Assembly (NCBI GenBank): GCA_025602905.1 | Contig: JAHLKI010000028.1 | Location: forward strand, 62,001-126,000 | Length of the DNA stretch: 64,000 bases | Direction of reading: 5' to 3' | DNA from: Phlyctochytrium arcticum | Taxonomy: Eukaryota > Chytridiomycota > Chytridiomycetes > Chytridiales > Chytridiaceae | Shown here: positions 21,790-52,638 of the stretch, piece by piece | Position numbering within the stretch: position 1 is the stretch's first letter | How the letters are laid out: each line of letters starts with the position of its first letter | The notes under the pieces: model-generated | Told to the model about the DNA's origin: nothing | Database searches by the model: none | Seen by the model: only the letters and a program-made list of their open reading frames with translations | Position numbers and translations under genes: made by a program

Positions 21790-23150
21790 GCCTTCATTGG
21801 ACAAAAAAAAAAAAAAAAAAGAGCACATTTTGTAGATTGAATCATAGCAAACATGAGTTTTCTTCCTTTTTAATAGTGATATTTTGCAATAGCAAAAAAG
21901 GTGGATCCAAAAATTAAATAGTCCGCTTAGTAACGCTCACGCACAGGACTCTTTAGTAAAAGGCGAAAGGGTCATTTGTTCTGAGTGAACGTCGCGGATG
22001 AAGGAAAAACCAGGAGGGGAAACGGGAAGGTCGCCTTTATATACCCGCGAGGATCTAGTGAGGCGCAGCCAGTGTTTCTGATTGGTCGTCGCTGTTGCTA
22101 TAGCAGCCCATAAGCGGGGCTTCAAACGCGTCGACATCTGCGACACCCCAGGCGACACCCAGACACCCGGATTTGACCCGGTCGACAGTCCAACAGTCCC
22201 GTAAGGCAACGCTACCACCGAGGAACATAACGAAAAACTGAAGGTCTGTGCCTGAGACGGGAAGATGCCGCGGCTGGGTGGGTCGAGCGACAAAGGTGAC
22301 GGATTGCCCAGTCTGACTGAGAGGGTCCAAGCGCCATAGGTGATAGATCTATCCAGTCCGATTGGCAGGATCTAAGCGTCTCTTTCAACAAACCGTCATG
22401 CACTTCATCATGCACTCTTTATATTCTCACTGACCACCTCTGTCTCTCCTAGCGTTTATTTAAGGCCCCTCTCTGCGTTTCATCGATGCTATGGCTCTCT
22501 TGCCCTATATCCAGCATGCGGCCGCCGTGTTGACAGGGAAGCGACGTGTAGCTTGCTGTAAGGATTACAGTAGCAGCCCCGGGTCAGGCACATTTGCAGA
22601 AAATACGCGCACGCTGATGATGCATCTATCTTCGTTATTCAACTGTCCTAACCCATTGCGCACTCCCCGAGGGAGTTATCATTTCGCCCGCACCCACATT
22701 GTGGAAGAAAGCAGCAGCAGCCGCGCATTCCATGCGAAACTGTACATATCACAATGGTGTTCTAATTACCAAGGTAATCTCCACCTACTGTAACGATTAT
22801 TGGAGATGCTTGTCGTCGTGCGCCAGAGGTTTCCATGTACAGCATGGTATCCCTGTTAGAATTTGCCTTATTCCGGGCATGTTCATACATGAGCCTGTAT
22901 AATTCTGAGGAAAGCCATCAGTAGTCATCTACCGGGATGTTGTATTCAAGTGTTAAAGTAATCTACCAATAAGCGCTTTTGTTAGGGAAGGTCATGCAAC
23001 GCCTGTCTGGGTGGATGCGAAAGACATTTCCTTTTGGGGGCACGTTTAGTAGAAGTACAAACTATGTTACAAAATGACAAAAAGGCCGTGCTTGAAATGT
23101 ATGTGCAATATGTAAAGAGGAGATGGACGCGAATGACTATGTAATACCGA
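21790..23150. other. 1.4 kb with no supported gene
   Basis: Begins with an 18-20 base A-run at about 21804-21821, just downstream of the p24 stop. A GC-rich block near 22140-22200 has short repeated gacaccc-type words. Plus-strand frames at 22491-22793 and 22699-22902 are open but have no signal peptide, family resemblance or convincing splice partners. No tRNA or snRNA recognised. Confidence 0.45.
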
Positions 23151-42797: not shown

Positions 42798-43621
42798 TCA
42801 GAAAGTCGTGCATGTCCGTTTGTCGTCTAGTTCGTGCAATAACCAACCCAAACAATCCGGCGCTCGGGCGACTGGTTTTCGAGACAGCGTCAAATATCGT
42901 CGTTCCCTTGAACGTTGGGTACATGTCGTCAAGATTGATGGAAATTGCAGTAAGAAGCTCATCAGCTGATCGGAGGTAGGTTTGCCGCCGGACTCAAGGA
43001 GGGCAAGTTGCAAGACAGGATCGTTACAACTGGCCAGGGCAGCCATTAAATTGTCGTAAAATTCCTTGCGATTGTCGATTAGGCACATGATTGTGGTAGG
43101 CACGTGCTCGGAATCAGGCTCTTCCGGAATCAACTCCTAGGACAATATGTGTTCACAAGCTTTGAGAAGAATCTTCCTATCGGATCGGTGTGGCATGATT
43201 GAGTTTTGACAGCACTACTGTATTGATGAAACATTCGAACAGAACCAAATGACGACGTAAAGTTACACAAGATGATTATAGCGAACGAGTTGAATGGATT
43301 GGCGACGGAAAAGAGCATCAAGAGGGAAGGAAGAGGCCAGCAAGATGAGAAAAATGAAACGTGAAAAGAGAACGACCGCCCACCTACCAAAGTAATTATT
43401 GCCGCCTTCACTGACAGCCCTGTATCAAAGATACACAGAGTTATGCCCCATGAACGAATCTGGGACATTTCACAATCGTAAAGCATTTTTTGAGGGAATG
43501 GTGTACGTATGTGAGAGGGGTTTTGACGGAAAAAGGCTCTTAAAAATAGGAAGGTGATGAGTTTCTTTGACAGAGTGAACTCAGGTCTGGCAGTGAACAT
43601 ACCATAGGCCAGTTCCTCCAT
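42798..43621 (-). CDS. Small conserved-looking protein of unknown function
   Basis: Family not recognised. Exon 1 (MEELAYG, start 43621) ends at a strong donor (G|GTATGT). An acceptor near 43412 (GATACAG) continues LSVKAAIITL, and a second intron (GTAGGT...TCCTAG) leads to ELIPEEPDSEHVPTTIMCLI and DNRKEFYDNLMAALASCNDP, then VLQLALLESGGKPTSDQLMS and FLLQFPSILTT, running to a stop at 42798. Helical, acidic, no membrane segment, about 130 residues. The spliced part up to SILTT looks like real coding sequence. The last 35 residues (Arg-rich) may be out of frame if a further intron exists. Confidence 0.45.
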
Positions 43622-43879
43622 CGTTTTGTATTGGTTCCTACCCAGTTGGTTATCGACGTCTCAGCCACAGGCTACCAATGTTCCCACGCCGGAAGGGTGT
43701 TTAGCGACTCCCTTCAATTGAAGTCGGAAATTCGAAGGGTGGGCACGAGCTCAAGAGACGGCCAAGTCGTCGTCGGTGTTCAATGATAGGAGGATGGTGC
43801 CAGGCCCTGGAAGTGCGGTCTTGGGTTGGGTGCAGTGAAGGAGGCGGAGGAAGGGGGGAGGGGTGTCATCGTGGGACCT

Positions 43880-44031
43880 TCAGGGAGCCCTAAAAATATC
43901 AAAAGTCAGTAAACAGTCTGGGAGAGAAAAGACGCGTTCTTAGATACTCACATTTGTTCAGAGTTGGGGACGGCGGAGAAGGCGGTGGGGAACCTCTCCC
44001 AGAGCGCAGACTCGAGGGCCTGATATGGCAT
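43880..44031 (-). CDS. Possible 29-residue two-exon mini-protein
   Basis: Not recognised. From an ATG at 44031 the minus strand reads MPYQALESALWERFPTAFSA and VPNSEQ, then a clean 62-nt intron (43951-43890, AT|GTGAGT...TTTTTAG|G) leads to MAP and a stop at 43880. The two exons sum to exactly 90 nt. A TATAAAAG box lies 64 bp upstream of the ATG and the 5' UTR is CT-rich, as in strongly expressed fungal genes. It could be a genuine micro-protein or an upstream ORF on the transcript of the 43621 gene. The case rests only on splice signals and the TATA box. Confidence 0.35.
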
Positions 44032-44094
44032 GGAAGAGTTCTGGAGAGGTGAAAATTGGTTAAAGAGATGGAGGGGAAAGCGCGGCAGACGCGG

Positions 44095-44102
44095 CTTTTA
44101 TA
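44095..44102 (-). promoter_or_regulatory. TATA box
   Basis: TATAAAAG on the minus strand, 64 bp upstream of the mini-protein ATG and followed by a pyrimidine-rich leader. Confidence 0.5.
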
Positions 44103-44256
44103 GCATGGGGCCAATCAGCAGCGAGGAATCTGTCGGTTACCCACCTTGACCGTTTCCCCCACACATGCTTTGTTGTATCACATCATGTATCAGATCGCAA
44201 TGATGCGGGACAATGATGCGGGAATCATTTGTGAACGGCTAACGCTGTACTCGAGT

Positions 44257-44651
44257 AATGTGTGCTCAACTATCTGGGCGTTGGCACACCTGTCAGTGGC
44301 AGACGCGAATCGGCCAAATTTCGCCCCCAATTTCGCAACTATCGTGCAAGTTTCGCACTACGATGGAAATGCTGGTAATATCGGGATGTTGTCGTTCAAC
44401 CCAGAAATCTCCAATTGGAGACAAAAGTTTTGGACGGGCAGATGAAGCAATGTAGCTCAAAGTTGAAAGTCGCAAACATCATCGGCGGAGATCCAAGTCT
44501 GACAAGCCACATTACGGCAGTAACTTGGTGTCAACTCGGGCCACGATGGATGTGGGAATCATGTGTGAACGGGCGGACGGGCTGTGTGAACGGCTAAAGG
44601 TGTGAATGTGTGCTCAACTATCTGGGCGTTGGCACACCTGTCAATGGCAGA
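44257..44651 (+). repeat. Pair of direct repeats upstream of the Fanzor gene
   Basis: A 47-bp word containing CTCAACTATCTGGGCGTTGG occurs at 44257-44303 and again at 44605-44651, 348 bp apart, with one mismatch. A looser copy pair (GGGAATCAT-T/G-TGTGAACGG) lies just upstream of each. A shorter GGACGCGACAC repeat (44670-44701) follows the second copy. No ORF explains them. They look like internal repeats of a mobile or formerly mobile segment. Confidence 0.6.
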
Positions 44652-44699
44652 TGTGACACAGGGTCCTTTGGACGCGACACTGGGCCCTCTGGACGCGAC

Positions 44700-45460
44700 A
44701 CCGTCACAAAATGGGGTTTTTGGTTTTGACAGCCGACTATGATGGGATGTATTAGTAAACACACGGGATGGATGAGAGAGGTCCGGTGCTTTCACATAGA
44801 CATTTTTATTAATGAGTGTCCAAACTCCATCAGAATCAAGTGCCCAAACTCCATCATAATCATAGTCAACCACCACCACCCCTTTTGCCAGTGCAAACCC
44901 AAACCTAAACGCACAAAACGAAACGCCCTGTGGAATGTCCCCACGCGTGTGTGGCAAATGAGCAGCTGTCGGTGTGTGCGTGGAGAGAGTCAAGACGCGT
45001 GTTGCTCTTGGAGCCCGCTGAGCTGACTGACGGCTGTGTGTGGTTCATTTGATTGCAGAGTGACATATTCCCTTCCCTCTGCTTCCTTCGTTCTTCTGCT
45101 CAGGCACTCACTCACTCGAACACGTAGGTTGAGAACATGTTTCCCAGATTGGCCGATATATTACCAACTTTTTTTTGTCTAGTTTGTATCCCCTCTCCCA
45201 CATCGAAAACGTACCCTCATTCGTGTCCTTTGATCACTTGCTATGTGACATCTTGTGATCTGTCAGTACAACAGTAGTGGCCCCGAGTCCTGAGTCCTGG
45301 TTGGAGCGGGTTAGCTAGCCTAGTTATTCTGCCGAGATCGCGTCGGAGCACAAAGGTCGTGGGAACTTCCACAGCACTGTTCAGCCACCGCGACTCCCCG
45401 CACGCTTGCGGAGTTCTATTATTTAAGTAGTTTAGCCTGGTCTCCTATTGTAATACATCT
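44700..45460. other. Gene-poor 5' flank of the Fanzor locus
   Basis: No supported gene. It contains a near-duplicate pair (CCAAACTCCATCAGAATCA / CCAAACTCCATCATAATCA at about 44819 and 44845). A palindromic word, TTAGCTAGCCTAGTT, lies near 45310; a similar TTAGCTAGC...CTAGTT word lies in the Fanzor 3' flank. The left end of the Fanzor element, if it has one, probably lies here, but no clear terminal repeat or target-site duplication is visible to me. Confidence 0.35.
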
Positions 45461-45470
45461 TATAAAAAGG
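45461..45470 (+). promoter_or_regulatory. TATA box of the Fanzor gene
   Basis: TATAAAAAGG, 112 bp upstream of the Fanzor ATG at 45582. The spacing suits a start site near 45490. Confidence 0.5.
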
Positions 45471-45581
45471 TAGCCTGGGTCCTCCCCGAGGAAGAGAACC
45501 CAGACCCTGACCGCCTATAATATATCTTGTGCGTCACCCATATTCATCGACCCCAGAAAGTCTGTCCTGTCATATGTTACC

Positions 45582-48500
45582 ATGTCTCGGAAAGGAAAGG
45601 AACGAGCGACATCACCACCACCAACAACCCATAAGCGTCATGACCCCTCTCTATCTCCGGGCTTTGGGGAGGAAGAAATTGATTTGGCGATGCAGAGATC
45701 CAGAGAAGGTATTCATGTGATATTTCACTGTTCTCTGATGATCCATTTCTCACTTGGAATGTCGCAGAATTTCGTCGAGAGGCAGGTCAGTCATCAGCAA
45801 CAACCGGCCAAGGTCAGCAAGGTTCGTCCTCCGGCATCCGCAAACGAAGAAAATCAGTTTCTCCTGAGAGCATTGGAAGCGACAGAGAAAGGACCCCACC
45901 GGAACAAATCAGACGTGGAGATATCTTGATGTCCTCGCCCTATGGACAAGCCGATCCGCTATCTCGAATTGGTGAGTTGATAAACACTTTTGACGTTGAC
46001 ACTTTATTGCGCAAGATATTGACTGGGCATTTCACTTTCCAGTCAACCGACCGCAGAATGAATGTTTTTGTCGTCTGCTGGATCCAGCGGTAGACGAGAC
46101 GGAAATCCCCACCCATAGCCGCGCAAACTTTGCCAAATGTCGCTTCAAGGGTCGTCCGAAAAGTGAGGTTGCTGTGAAACGAAAAGAGGCGAACGAGAGA
46201 CAAGTGCAAGTTCTCGCTCATTCGGAGATTAACACTATAGTCGATGAGTCCAGTCCATCAACACCCAAAAAGAAACGCATCGTTGGCAAAAGGACAAAGA
46301 GAGAAGAAGTCTCTTTGAGCTTGCGCTTTGGGAATATTACAAACCGGACACGCCACAAGCGCCCAAGGAGAAGGGCCGCAAAAAGAAGGGCGGCACAAAG
46401 CAAGGTCGAAAGACAACGGGAGGCTCAGGTGGCGATGGCGATGGTGGTCCTGATGATGATGCTGCTGATCAAGATGGAGATGGGAGCAACGCCATTTTTG
46501 CCATCAAGATTGGGCTCGCGCCAGTCGAAGGAGGTGATGCTACTAGGAACGGAATCGCTCGCCATGATCAAGTCGTGGATGTCCTGCGCGACGCGGTTAA
46601 AAGGTAAGCAATCCAAAGATACTTTTTAGTCACAATTGATCCTAACCCAACATCTGTTGCAGATACAACCAGATCCTCTTTGAGGGTCATCACCTTCTGA
46701 CCATTTATGCCTTGATACAAATGACCAAATCCAAACGGGATCTTCCGTTTACATCGGTAAAGGACCTTTCCTTCCTGGTGCAAAAGTGCTATCAAGCAGT
46801 CTCCACCATCGGTGAGCAGCATCCCAACACCGACGCCTCCGTATTTCATGACATACGACTGTTGGAAGCTTTCCAAATGTATTGCCAAAATCGTCCACAA
46901 AATCTGCCATGGGCGGATCGCAGAGACATCGACAATGCCCTGACGTATGGAGCGATCTCGCATGCGGAGTCGACGAGAAAGCACGTTGTCATGCATTTGG
47001 TCGAACGGATAACAAGATATTTCACTATACGCCTAGACTCCGAGTTGGCCGAATGTGCGGACCTTGCGGGGAAGTGGATGCCCTCCGACTGGAAGTTTTT
47101 GGCCAAGCGGATGGCCAATCGTTTGACGTACAACGAGGCGCAAGCCTTTGTTCTGGCCCAGGCAAACGGAGAAGACCCTCCCGCAGTACCGAATTGGAGT
47201 AAGCCGTCAAAAGCCGAAGAAATTTTGGGGAAAGGCCGTGTCACCACAGCAAAGAGGAGAAGCAAAGATTCCATCAGGCGCGCAGCACTGATGGGAAATA
47301 CGTTAGTTTGCGACAAGGTTTTCCAAATTTTCAATGATATCGCCGGACGGGTAGAGAGGGATGACCGAACCGCCCTTCCGATTTGCCGCTCAAAAATGGG
47401 TGTGGACTCAAAGTGGGGCGCATCATACTTGGGGATTCACATATTCATGTTGCGAACGTTGGAAGCACTTGGTCAGGCCACATCTTCTGGCGCAGGATCA
47501 GGCAGTTCAGCACCCAAGGAACGAGCGATCAAAAGAATCTCTCGGGCGTGGGCCATTCGTGGTGTCAAAGATTTGCTACGAAAAGAAGATGGGACCACTG
47601 TTGACATCTCGCGACGAGCTGTAAGTCGCCTGGCCGCGGCCCTACAGCGAGCCGTGAAGGATCCGAATTCACGAATTTCCGATTCTTTGTCAAAGGGCAT
47701 CAGTCGCGGCAGGCAGAAGCACCGTCGCGCGGAAATCTCATTGGATTTGATCACCAAAGCGCGCACAGTAGCCCAAGCAACCCAAAAGGCCATCACGGAC
47801 GGCACTTTGATGGAGCCAAGTTGGAAATAAATGTTGGTGCAAAGCAAAGCAAAGCTTTGGACCCTATTGCCATTGTCGCATTTCGCTCCCCAAAACATGC
47901 AAATCGATACCAAGGATTTGACCAGCCTTTGGCGCCGAATCGACCCATCAGTAGGCAAAAGTTATAATGGTCGAAATGTGCCACCCGGCGCCTGGAAATA
48001 CGGGATTTGGATCGAGTCATTCAAGTTGGACCGTTTGCGGGGGATTCAAGTCCCTTATTTTGAAGCCTGGTAAGTCATTTCCGGTATCGACTGTCACTAC
48101 TGCAGAGCACTAAACCGCAGATTCTTTTACTATATCAGTTTTGCTCGCCCGCCGCAATCCCAGAATCGGTTTTTTCGGTTCTTCATGGAGGCGGATGGGC
48201 ATTCGTGCTCATTCCTCTGCGATCGGCCCGCAAACCCAAACCCAACCTTACTCACACCGGCTAATGTCAGAATGGATTCCAACACGATTTTCAAGTCTGT
48301 AGACCCGGGAGAGACTGACATCGTGATGGTTTACAAGCCCGATCTCGTTTTCAATCCAACGGACCACAATAGGAAGGCTACGATGCCACACTTTGTAGTG
48401 GATTGTGACTCCCGGAACATCATCGCCGCTTTACCCAACAAGGCCGACGCGCGTAAACAGATGCGCCAGCAGAGTGGGCTGCGGACAACCCACGTTTCTG

Positions 48501-49312
48501 GTGCCGAGTGGAGACATCTTGCGGGGTACAACCTGAAGAGCAGGCTCAGGGAAAAGAATATCTCTGCCGAAGTCAAAACGATTCAGACAAATTTGGGAAG
48601 CGGCAAGACAGCCTCTCTCCAAGTGTTCCAAGCGTACTCACGGCAGACCCTCTTCCATTACGACACCCTCCGTGAAGCTCATAGCCAAGAAGCTGCCTGG
48701 CGATTCTACACCTATATCCGCCGGCAGAAGGCCCTGCACAGCATAGCTTTGAGGGTCAAGGGTCCCGAAAACAGCAATAAACCGCGGAATGAGATTGTGA
48801 TTGCTTTCGGGGCAGGTCAGTTCGCAGCCACCAAAGGTCGACGTGGAGCACCGACCAAAACAATCATCAAGGCTCTGAATATGGACATGACGGTTGTGAT
48901 GGTAGACGAGCATCGAACATCCAAAGTCTGCTTCAAGTGTCGAGTATCATCCCCTCCCGTACCCATCAGTGACGATACCGCGTCTCAACAACCGTCTCAA
49001 GAAATTGTGGTGGCATTTGAAGAAGAAGACTTCGGGTTCGGTGAGCTTCAAGAAATGGAGGGCGACGACGACGCCGACGACAACACGACTACAGAAGTCA
49101 AAGAAAACCAGAAATGGGACTTGCGACCAATGTACGAGACGGCGGGTGACAAGACAAGCTCTGAAATTCACGCTGTTCGACATTGCGACAGATGTCACAC
49201 TACGTGGAACCGCGACGCTTGTGCCTCAGGCAACATATCCTTTGTCTTCTGGCATGAACGTTGCAACGGTAGTCGGCCCCTAGGCTTCCTTCGTACACGT
49301 TCCACTTCTTGA
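45582..49312 (+). CDS. Fanzor, eukaryotic TnpB-like RNA-guided nuclease
   Basis: Proposed exons: 45582-45708, 45768-45971, 46043-46203, 46254-46603, 46663-47767, 47855-48069 and 48139-49312 (about 1,111 residues). The N-terminus is Ser/Lys-rich and basic (KRRK, RKKKGG), nuclear-type. The middle is helical (WEYY, HDQVVDVLRDAVKRYNQI, EEILGKGRVTTAKRRSKD). Then come the family motif LLPLSHFAPQNMQID and the RuvC region: Asp in FKSVDPGETDIVM (48302-48304), FGAGQF...KGRRGAPTKTI, the rearranged Glu in MVDEHRTSKVCFKC (48908-48910), zinc ribbon CFKC ... CDRC, and Asp in TTWNRDACASGNI (49214-49216). About 80 acidic residues separate the cysteine pairs, unusually long. An in-frame TAA (47828-47830) must be removed by an intron with a poor acceptor (47768-47854), or the gene is broken there. 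Fanzors of Spizellomyces and other eukaryotes are known RNA-guided DNA endonucleases. Confidence 0.88.
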
Positions 49313-49626
49313 TTGGTTGTCTTTATTGTTCACTCTCCTCTTACAATCCCCTCATTCTGATTCCGAGCATCCCTCGGAAAATTGGAGAACTCATCCATCC
49401 ACATCAACTCCAAAAGTAAACCCATGTTTTATCCTGTCTTGTCAAAGTTTTCAATATCATTCTCTCAGTTCAAAATTGAGTCCTGTCTTGGTTTTCTAAA
49501 GTTTTCAATATCGTTCTCTCACTTCAAAATTGAGTCCTGTCTTGGTTTTCTAATTTTGTATAAGTTTCAAAACGTCTGAATCTCGGCTATCTTGACTGCA
49601 CTACTTGAATTAGCTAGCATACAAGG
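49240..49626 (+). ncRNA. Candidate Fanzor guide (omega) RNA region
   Basis: In known Fanzor and TnpB loci the guide RNA overlaps the 3' end of the nuclease gene and extends past it to the element's right end. The 314 bp between the Fanzor stop and the end of the neighbouring transporter remnant has no ORF, carries a 54-bp tandem duplication, and holds small hairpins (CTCA...TGAG around TTCAAAATT in each unit). The location is predicted from that precedent only; neither its ends nor a guide segment can be fixed from sequence alone. Confidence 0.3.
49446..49553 (+). repeat. 54-bp tandem duplication in the Fanzor 3' flank
   Basis: Two abutting units, 49446-49499 and 49500-49553, differ at only two positions. 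Each begins AGTTTTCAATATC and ends CTTGGTTTTCTAA. A partial third copy of the unit's end (TCCTGTCTTG) lies just upstream at about 49433-49442. Confidence 0.9.
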
Positions 49627-49709
49627 CTAGTTCACTACAATCTCAGAGTGTGGAGGTGATTGTCCTTGCTCATGGTTGGCTGTCCGGTCGTTAGAGACGG
49701 TGATAACTG

Positions 49710-50490
49710 TCACATCTCTCTTCTCATGGCCATGCTGAGACCCAAGTGCCGTTGAAGAATCCGAGCGAACCAATCCTTGCTCCTCCAAAGTGTTGGGATC
49801 AGTGACAGTCTTGTCGACATCCATCGCATCGCTTGATCCACATTTCGAAGCCCAGAAAATCGGTATACCATAGCACTGACGATAAGCATCAGCATAAATG
49901 TCGCAATGATAACAAAGCCTATCGTGTCGGAATTCTCGCCTACTCCCCCAACTACATCCCAGATGCCTCCTGATAGCTCATACTTTTCACCCACAATGCT
50001 AAGAACCTGAATGATTCCCACAATAAAGGCAATCAGGACTGACAAAAGGGTAACGATAAAGTTGTAGTAACGCTTCTTTGCGGGGTGGATATTGGCCCAT
50101 GCATACACTGCCAGCTGGATACATGAAAGATGATGAGAATTGCGATTAGGGTGGAACCGACACCTGCAACTTACCATGGCAATCCCGTCCATTGTGTCAA
50201 TCAGTGTCATTCCAGCTGTAAAAAGTGCAGGGAGAAACAAGACCAGACCCAGCGGCATTCCACTACCCGCGTGAGCAGCACTGATGGCTAGCAACGAAAT
50301 TTCAGTAGCTGTGTCAAATCCTAATCCGCTGAGGTACAATAGATGAATGAATTCCGGCAAGATAAACAAACGAGGGGAATGACTTACAAGAGCAGTCCGA
50401 GAGGATACATTTTCCAAGGAGCATTGATGAAATTGTAAACCCACCGGAACCACCGACCGATGGACTGAGAGCAGATTGTATAGGGAGATG
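49710..50490 (-). pseudogene. 5'-truncated nickel/cobalt transporter (NiCoT family)
   Basis: The C-terminal half of a high-affinity Ni/Co permease. Segments: RWFRWVYNFINAPWKMYPLG, then after an intron GLGFDTATEISLLAISAAHA (the family's LGFDTATE signature), LFLPALFTAGMTLIDTMDGI (second signature), then after another intron YAWANIHPAKKRYYNFIVTL and transmembrane helices to MVYRFSGLRNVDQ. The N-terminal half, which should hold the metal-binding HX4DH motif (HAxDADHI), is absent. Only about 330 bp separate this fragment from the ATG of the divergent neighbour, and no frame there resembles NiCoT. Past the last helix two frames compete: one stops at 49710, another stays open to a stop at 49627, another hint of decay. 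It cannot encode a working transporter as seen. Confidence 0.65.
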
Positions 50491-50714
50491 GCCCCACACT
50501 TGTTTTCCACACAATGTTGGCGTACTTTCTCCAGCTGCAATTTCAACCCCCACATATGCCGTCGTGCCATCTCGGTCTGGGTCTGTCTGTCACGTCCCGT
50601 CCGGATCGTAGCGGATCGCCTTCCCAATTGTCGGGATCTTCAACCCGATCATGAAGGAGCGCGACGCCGCCGCCGGGATGGAATTTTGAATTTGTCATCG
50701 AATTTGCGCAGCAC

Positions 50715-50723
50715 TATATAAAT
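50715..50723 (+). promoter_or_regulatory. TATA box of the acyltransferase gene
   Basis: TATATAAAT, 104 bp upstream of the ATG at 50819. Confidence 0.55.
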
Positions 50724-50818
50724 CCCGACGGCAGCTTCTTGGGACAGAAAGGCCTTGAAGAACATTGTCCTTCTCCCAAAAGCTGCACTTTGGCCACCGG
50801 CTGCCAACCACCCTCGCC

Positions 50819-52638
50819 ATGGCACGAACCGTGTGCTCCGCCTTCAGGCAGAATGGCCCCATTGACGAAGAGAATCAGCAGCAGCAGCAGCCTCCAGACA
50901 CCCATGGCGCTGCTTCCGACGAAACTAGCCCATTATTGGGACGAAGAGCCGTAGCTGCTACCAATGCCGAGCCTGTTCCCAACGTTGCCCCGGCCAAGCC
51001 TGCTCGTCTGCTGTATTTAGATCATATTCGAGGACTCCTGATGATTTTTCAGTCTATCGATCGTACGTTTCAATGCTCTTCTCTCGCATCATAACCAACC
51101 CCCACTCACCAATACGTTACTGTGTATATGGTAGATTCACGCGGGATGCTTTCACGTATCAATATTCCTCACGAAGAGTGGTGGAATATGCCGGATTACA
51201 AGGGCAACCTGTACCATTGGTTTGTGCGATTTCTCACTGCTCTATGTGCACCAGGTCCGTACTCCTCATTCCCCTGAAGACTATGATCTTTTGCTAATAA
51301 CATGTTTTATGGCAAATAGGGTTTATGATGACGATGGGATGCGGAATCCTTTTGTTTACAATGAGTCGTCGGAAACTGGGCTGGAAATGGAGCTCAATTA
51401 TCAGGCATTTCTTTATTAGAGGACTCGTCCTGGTCATTGTCAACTTTGCCATGACTGCCGGTAAGTGTTCTGCACCATAGTAGGATCAACAAATCACTGA
51501 CAAAGTGTAGGTTATGGAATCTTGTTGACGGTTCTTTTTGCGCTCGGCGTAGACATGTTCCTGGGCGCTTGTATATTAGCCCTAGAGACGGCGGCCACTG
51601 AACGTCTGGCCGCAAAGTTAGAATCCCGCAACCCCGATGCCGACTCGGCTGCCTCTGACCCCCACAAAAAGGCCGCCTTTGTTTCCATCTCCTTCTACGC
51701 CCTCTTTGCTGCCGTCATTACTTCTCTGTCCAGCATCTACACCCCTACACCAGAACATACCGCCGACAACTACAACATTGTATGGAGGACGCTGTTCTTG
51801 CCCTTTCCCAAAAATGACAAATCTGCCGTTTATGACTTGTACCCGCCCGTGCCGTGGTTGGGCATGGTGCTGTGGGGCATCATGCTGCAAAGGCTGATTA
51901 CAGTTTTGAAGCTGCGATCGCGGGATACTGCCATTCTGCACCTGGTCAGCCTCCCTTTCACTCTAAAACTTTCTTCCTCATTGAATTATTAAATCTCGTC
52001 TAATCTTAGGCACTGGGAACCATCCTGTGGATTATATTCATTCCCGTGCGTCTCATAAACGGTTTTGGTAACATCAATCCTGGCCAACTGCACCCCAGCC
52101 CCCGTCACTCATTCATCAACTTCTTTAATCTCACAAAGTATGTCTTTGCAATCTTTGATTTACAAAAGAATCGTTGAGCTCATGGAATCGTTTAGGTACC
52201 CACCATCCATTGCGTACACGACCTGTACCATCGGAATCGTTCATCTTCTATGTGCATTCTTTATTACCGCCGAGATCAAGTTGAAAAACACGGCATGGTC
52301 ATCGCCCAAGAACCCTTTGAACGTCTATGGAACGTCCGCCTTCTTCTTTTGTAAGTGTTTTCCTCTGAAATCCAAAAGAAAAGAAAATACTCACATTTGG
52401 CGCAGATCTGTCACACTTTTACGTTTATCAGGGTATGGCAGTACTTCTTCGCCTTGTCGGCGCACTGCCCGAAAACAAGAATGGCCTCGGCTTCGGGGGC
52501 GACCAAAGCGGAAATCTGCCCGACCCCTGGTACTGGCTGACCTGGGTGGTCGGTCTGGCCATTCTGTACCCCATGTGTTTTTTCTACGGACGTTTCAAGC
52601 AGAGCCGCTCACCTAATTCACTCTGGAGATTGTTCTAG
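50819..52638 (+). CDS. HGSNAT-like (DUF1624) membrane acyltransferase
   Basis: Polytopic membrane protein related to heparan-alpha-glucosaminide N-acetyltransferase. Start MARTVCSAFRQNGPIDEENQ (50819). A cytosolic leader (poly-Gln; ETSPLLG, a dileucine-like sorting motif) precedes RLLYLDHIRGLLMIFQSID, the conserved D-x-x-RG(L/I)xx block of this superfamily. After introns come HSRGMLSRINIPHEEWW, a His-containing segment in the position of the family's catalytic His, HWFVRFLTALCAPGFMMTMG, FFIRGLVLVIVNFAMTAGYG, ILLTVLFALGVDMFLGACIL, a luminal or cytosolic loop, PPVPWLGMVLWGIMLQRLIT, LHLALGTILWIIFIPVRLIN, KYPPSIAYTTCTIGIVHLLC, YLSHFYVYQGMAVLLRL and WVVGLAILYPMCFFYGRF. About ten helices. Fungi lack heparan sulfate, so the acceptor is unknown. 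Stop at 52636-52638. Confidence 0.8.

Follow-up and report, generated by a model that had tools for sequence, protein, structure and literature searches.

A probably inactivated and decaying Fanzor1 paralog within a large chytrid subfamily

Our analysis implies that the Fanzor gene at positions 45582-49312 (plus strand) of the window, which is the whole 64,000-nucleotide stretch C28:62001-126000 of the Phlyctochytrium arcticum genome (31.5 Mb, 91 contigs), is with good probability an inactivated and decaying paralog within a large chytrid Fanzor1 subfamily. The inactivation is backed by an in-frame TAA stop codon, a change of the reading frame, the decay of the sister copies and the replacement of the TDG motif by ADG. 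The finding corrects the initial annotation, which had presented an intact gene and nuclease and overlooked both the TAA and the frame change in exon 3, and it draws attention to a paralog on contig C1 that is apparently open. The presence of open and decayed copies in one small genome is an aid to asking what role Fanzors play in their host and in what manner they are lost.

The gene is composed of five exons and four GT-AG introns of 59-71 nt (Table 1), which agrees with the multi-exon layout proposed initially. The N-terminus of the C1 paralog (locus L009, C1:1597000-1604500, minus strand), MSGKGKRRATSP, is similar to that of the window gene, MSRKGKERATSP, and the start codon at 45582 is therefore supported. 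The fourth and last intron is the same in the public gene model P0004, which holds only 448 C-terminal residues, begins behind the in-frame stop and matches the exon-5 product of the window gene with 100% identity. The exon lengths total 3,473 nt, which is no multiple of three, because the frame changes within exon 3.

Table 1. Features of the Fanzor locus and its surroundings (window positions; for the clade-B block, positions in the loci named)
Feature	Position	Strand	Basis or remark
Upstream repeat, shared with C12 and C4, where it likewise precedes Fanzor pieces	43216..44103		same relative order
Solo LTR, 331 bp, TATA box at 45461; flanks TGCTA / TGTTA (4/5 alike)	45244..45574		~78% identical to LTRs of the C5 element
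Exon 1, with start codon	45582..45708	+	borders; N-terminus alike in L009
Exon 2	45768..45971	+	intron/border analysis
Exon 3, holds frame change	46043..46603	+	borders; codon-usage scan
Frame-change zone: frameshift or weak intron 46204-46253	46204..46345	+	codon scan, intron candidates, alignment
Exon 4, REC/WED part, holds in-frame stop	46663..48069	+	borders
In-frame TAA stop	47828..47830	+	C12 has sense codon there
Exon 5, with the RuvC domain, the zinc ribbon and the terminal stop	48139..49312	+	SpuFz1 match, PF07282, motifs, public model P0004
ADG replacing TDG of Fanzor1 WED	48191..48199	+	TDG in L009, P0002, P0003, P0011
RuvC-I Asp codon (DPG)	48302..48304	+	motif
Alternative catalytic Glu codon	48908..48910	+	motif; aligned to SpuFz1
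First CxxC (CFKC)	48929..48940	+	motif
81-residue insert between CxxC pairs, partly acidic	48941..49183	+	motif spacing
Second CxxC (CDRC)	49184..49195	+	motif
RuvC-III Asp codon (WNRD)	49214..49216	+	motif
Last 42 nt similar to C12 past stop codon	49313..49354	+	alignment to C12
Truncated copy of NicO nickel-transporter gene	49581..50462	-	98.4% identical to C28:193209-194086
Clade-B 3' block	L010 4806-4848 (rc); L013 4454-4496; L015 4045-4084; L016 4249-4288 (rc)		same end base

The sister copy on C12 is 91% identical over the stretch around the TAA and has a sense codon there, and the paralog L009 has no intron at this position. The sole in-frame GT-AG candidate of 40-120 nt across the TAA (47768-47854) was rejected; its donor, GTAGCC, is poor and its acceptor is AAG. 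An assembly error or RNA editing may lie behind the TAA.

For the first part of exon 3 the codon-usage scan mostly favoured one frame, and around 46345-46400 it favoured another; the scan is noisy, as the first frame again scores higher at 46420-46465. After the examination of 27 intron candidates for the frame change one weak intron of 50 nt (46204-46253) remained, with a GTGCAA donor that is unlike those of the other four introns. The alignment score is 205 with this intron and 208 with a frameshift. Locus L009 has a single open frame across exon 3 and no intron at the equivalent position, and therefore a frameshift is the simpler reading. Only one lesion, the TAA, is certain, and the frame change fits the weak intron almost equally well.

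One could argue that the locus still encodes a full-length working Fanzor, the TAA being a sequencing error, an edited position or a codon that is read through, and the frame change being a fifth weak intron. Excision of 46204-46253 does restore the frame and aligns about equally well, one stop only is found in ~1,140 codons, the RuvC exon with its catalytic triad is otherwise uninterrupted, and the dN/dS values lie below 1. However, this intron would have to use the deviant donor and has no equivalent in L009, no plausible intron removes the stop, and the TDG motif has been lost. Thus it is unlikely that the gene is still working, and we prefer to regard it as an inactivated paralog.

Judged by its sequence, the window gene is a real Fanzor1, in agreement with the identity assigned to it initially. 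Exon 5 alone matches the Spizellomyces punctatus Fanzor SpuFz1 (8gkh) with an E-value of 4.6e-5, the only PDB match with a single-sequence query, and a four-sequence profile gave 2.6e-9. The Pfam family PF07282 is matched at 27.1 bits, just above the cut-off of 26.3, and the motifs stand in order; the exon-4 part gave no meaningful match in Pfam or PDB. The SpuFz1 alignment is limited to exon-5 residues 93-271 and therefore includes the Glu and not the two catalytic Asp, which were assigned from the motifs and from family alignments. All motifs that had been quoted (the DPG Asp, the Glu by the zinc ribbon, the WNRD Asp, the CxxC pairs and the LLPLSHFAPQNMQID block) are present in the sequence, the LLPLSHFAPQNMQID block after 47831, just behind the in-frame stop.

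Among the features of Fanzor1, the RuvC D-E-D triad is recognised by motifs and spacing, RuvC1 carries the DPG named in PMC10711439, the Glu is placed six residues ahead of the zinc finger as published (E, six residues, CFKC), and the zinc finger (CFKC, CDRC; PF07282) lies between RuvC2 and RuvC3. The TDG of the WED domain, called characteristic of Fanzor1 in the same paper, is ADG in the window copy; TDG is read in the C12 alignment as well, and the comparison indicates that the motif is kept by the family and lost in the window copy. The gene also falls outside the spacing of a published screening pattern, which in PMC10711439 allows 120-160 residues and, between the CxxC pairs, 12-18 residues (201 and 81 in the window gene); this pattern is a search filter and no definition of Fanzor1. 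The DPG and the Glu beside the zinc finger do not fit a canonical TnpB, which has a D-hydrophobic-G motif and a Glu located ~50 residues before the zinc finger according to the literature.

The window gene and SpuFz1 (PDB 8gkh, 9ceu-9cez) share the Glu region by alignment, the same kind of D-E-D triad (D383, E541 and D606 in the published SpuFz1 description) and a chytrid host. However, SpuFz1 is described as the product of one ORF within a 2.1-kb element that carries inverted repeats, whereas the window gene has five exons, an open paralog of 1,130-1,156 residues and no convincing element ends. The D-to-E spacer is 201 residues long in the window gene and 201-211 in five family proteins, compared to 154 in P0011 and to 157 by the published SpuFz1 numbering. 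A partly acidic stretch of 74-100 residues separates the CxxC pairs in the window gene, P0002 and P0005, the three in which both pairs were seen. The RuvC of the family is enlarged by ~50 residues, and its zinc ribbon has an acidic insert, the latter being a concrete structural difference for testing. PMC10711439 mentions that some Fanzor1s reach ~800 residues via REC, RuvC and zinc-finger insertions, the length given there for the longest ones and exceeded by the C1 paralog. PpFz1 from Parasitella parasitica has a likewise enlarged RuvC, with a ~100-residue FRI insertion according to PMC11423790; compared with PpFz1, by that description only, the window family has a second insert inside the zinc ribbon. 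Large Fanzor1s with insertions are thus published, therefore the kind is known and the chytrid family is a large example of it.

To the same family belongs P0002 (HK104_006022) from Borealophlyctis nickersoniae, which is 35% identical over 97% of the searched region and open over 1,026 residues. The acidic zinc-ribbon insert is found in P0002 and in the hypothetical family proteins P0003, P0005 and P0006, all of them from other species or paralogs. The P0011-like Fanzors (559 aa; related pieces at the second locus on C2) have the same D-E-D motifs, the alternative Glu and TDG, but differ in their shorter D-to-E spacer, in DPN instead of DPG and in forming a separate branch. The open-licence literature gave no paper treating P. 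arcticum Fanzors by title or abstract.

A translated search of the genome with exon 5 gave 30 matches at no fewer than 14 separate Fanzor places including the window (at least 13 others). A DNA search added Fanzor fragments on C4 and C22, which a protein search with P0002 did not recover, and at six further Fanzor loci the matches are split across several frames. The tree of the RuvC region was built from 21 of the 22 sequences collected, C14 being dropped for fewer than 90 aligned residues and P0004 and P0005 being omitted as duplicates; the branch of C32, C8, P0011 and the second C2 locus served as its outer group. The window gene is grouped with C12 and C48 (support 100) and next with L009 (99), while clade B consists of the copies on C2, C7, C13 (two loci) and C15 (support 99), with C6 joined weakly (68).

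Both sister copies of the window gene are decayed: C12 has 16 gaps that are not a multiple of three (introns included) and 3 stops in 637 aligned codons, and the C48 fragment has 2 such gaps and 1 stop in 155 codons. Compared with C12 (637 codons) the window gene has a dN/dS of 0.52, and compared with C48 (155 codons) one of 0.65, as would be expected if constraint held part of the time; against L009 the synonymous sites are saturated. Domestication of the window copy, suggested initially, is unsupported because its frame is interrupted and its nearest sisters are decayed. L009, in turn, is apparently open across five exons; its exact length is uncertain, ranging from 1,130 to 1,156 residues with the splice sites chosen in the top-ranked among 270 splice chains, and its public model P0005 holds 409 residues only. 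A second Fanzor C-terminal piece lies ~500 bp behind L009.

The clade-B copies on C2 and C13 have ~6.1 kb in common at 98-99% identity, including upstream coding DNA that we take to carry RCC1-type repeats. The common stretch ends within the C13 Fanzor gene, and at the ends of the duplication inverted matches of 8-12 nt only were found. We rejected a transposon and read the stretch as a segmental duplication because of the RCC1-type repeats upstream and the end inside the C13 Fanzor gene. Probably the Fanzor copies of this genome multiply at least partly by such duplication of segments and then decay. On C2, the clade-B gene carries at its end an inserted repeat of ~235 bp, for which C7 has the empty site; among the matches listed for this repeat 38 of 40 rows match (40 of 62 candidates scored).

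The solo LTR in front of the window gene ends 7 bp ahead of the Fanzor ATG. The TATA box that had been credited to the gene does exist, but it lies within this LTR. The related C5 element has two LTRs that are 98.5% identical to each other, and according to PMC10432273 Fanzors of S. punctatus also have Gypsy/Ty3 insertions nearby. The initial placement between housekeeping genes is not borne out on the right side, where a truncated transporter-gene duplicate lies, without the N-terminal half of NicO; its counterpart lies 82 kb off on the same contig, at a locus that also has this half. The interval from the Fanzor gene to the transporter fragment contains two tandem 54-nt repeats, 96% identical (49444-49551). 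The upstream ORFs gave no Pfam match among four tried. Locus L061 (C1:680551-681421) is a Fanzor-less relative in which the window pieces 43216-43581, 44038-44241 and 44863-45145 are joined, at 91-99% identity.

These surroundings bear on the notion that the Fanzor gene sits inside a DNA transposon, with a left end at ~43216 and a right end at ~49354, and is thus a mobile element. The left boundary sequence is exact at three places (window, C1 and C12) and has two mismatches on C4, the C1 relative is without Fanzor, the similarity to C12 ends 42 nt beyond the stop codon, and a perfect 13-nt inverted pair (43105-43117 / 49357-49369) brackets the gene. However, this pair is at chance level (~0.55 such pairs expected), is absent from 12 of 12 related loci scanned (up to one mismatch) and does not coincide with 43216. 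Additionally, nothing from the right side is found on C1, and the related C2 and C13 copies lie within a duplication that includes another gene. Convincing terminal inverted repeats were found neither in 43500-51500 nor in 42900-51500 (longest 25 of 59 pairs in the latter). We consider the mobile element rather improbable, and the recent mobile insertion suggested initially is unsupported because the nearest copies are 82-92% identical and the terminal repeats unconvincing.

Returning to the inactivated paralog, working members of the family would, by analogy with SpuFz1, bind an omega (guide) RNA, open double-stranded DNA that matches it and cleave this DNA via the RuvC D-E-D triad. At most, a C-terminal fragment would still be made from the window copy, lacking the N-terminal part and most of the REC part; such a fragment is unlikely to be functional, and most likely the copy has no present-day role. 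That the publicly predicted 448-residue product is a functional shortened protein is highly improbable: it exists as a gene model with an open RuvC and zinc ribbon, but it is without the REC part, which according to PMC11423790 holds guide and target in solved Fanzors, and gene finders begin behind a stop by construction.

The support for candidate guide RNAs is weak throughout, and an Rfam search gave nothing relevant to omega RNA. The stretch 49160-49300 of the window folds better than its shuffles (z -2.46, 1/200), and the stretch past the stop codon has no folding excess over shuffles (z 0.02). In the folding scan the window stretches at 49200 and 49160 were third and fourth lowest of 72, L009 5320-5459 was lowest or tied of 35, and L010 4720-4859 was second of 23. 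A hairpin on the minus strand at 43391-43424 is also found upstream of the clade-A loci C12, C4 and L009, and the C1 relative that lacks a Fanzor has it too; the hairpin has a z of -1.51, a two-sided change in 1 of 14 pairs (5 sequences) and a covariation term of -0.08.

This hairpin is somewhat similar to a 40-nt block that stands just after four clade-B Fanzor genes and has the same end base (..ATTACT) in each; only three of the flanks are independent, because C2 and C15 share DNA further on. The block may represent the 3' end of a guide RNA, but its folding does not surpass that of shuffles (z +0.93), and it has a two-sided change in 1 of 6 pairs (4 sequences). Searched genome-wide with up to 3 mismatches, its pattern matches the C2 and C7 copies only, and therefore gene-less copies of the block were not found.

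A further reading, to which we give little credence, is that the lineage of large chytrid Fanzors has left transposon life, with ~1,150-residue genes, conserved introns, an acidic zinc-ribbon arm and no transposon ends, spread by segmental duplication and taking their guide RNA from a short hairpin block, which would lie directly after the gene in clade B and upstream on the opposite strand in clade A. Elsewhere in the window, a U5 spliceosomal RNA is found at 21888-21999 on the minus strand, scoring 76 bits where the gathering score is 40.
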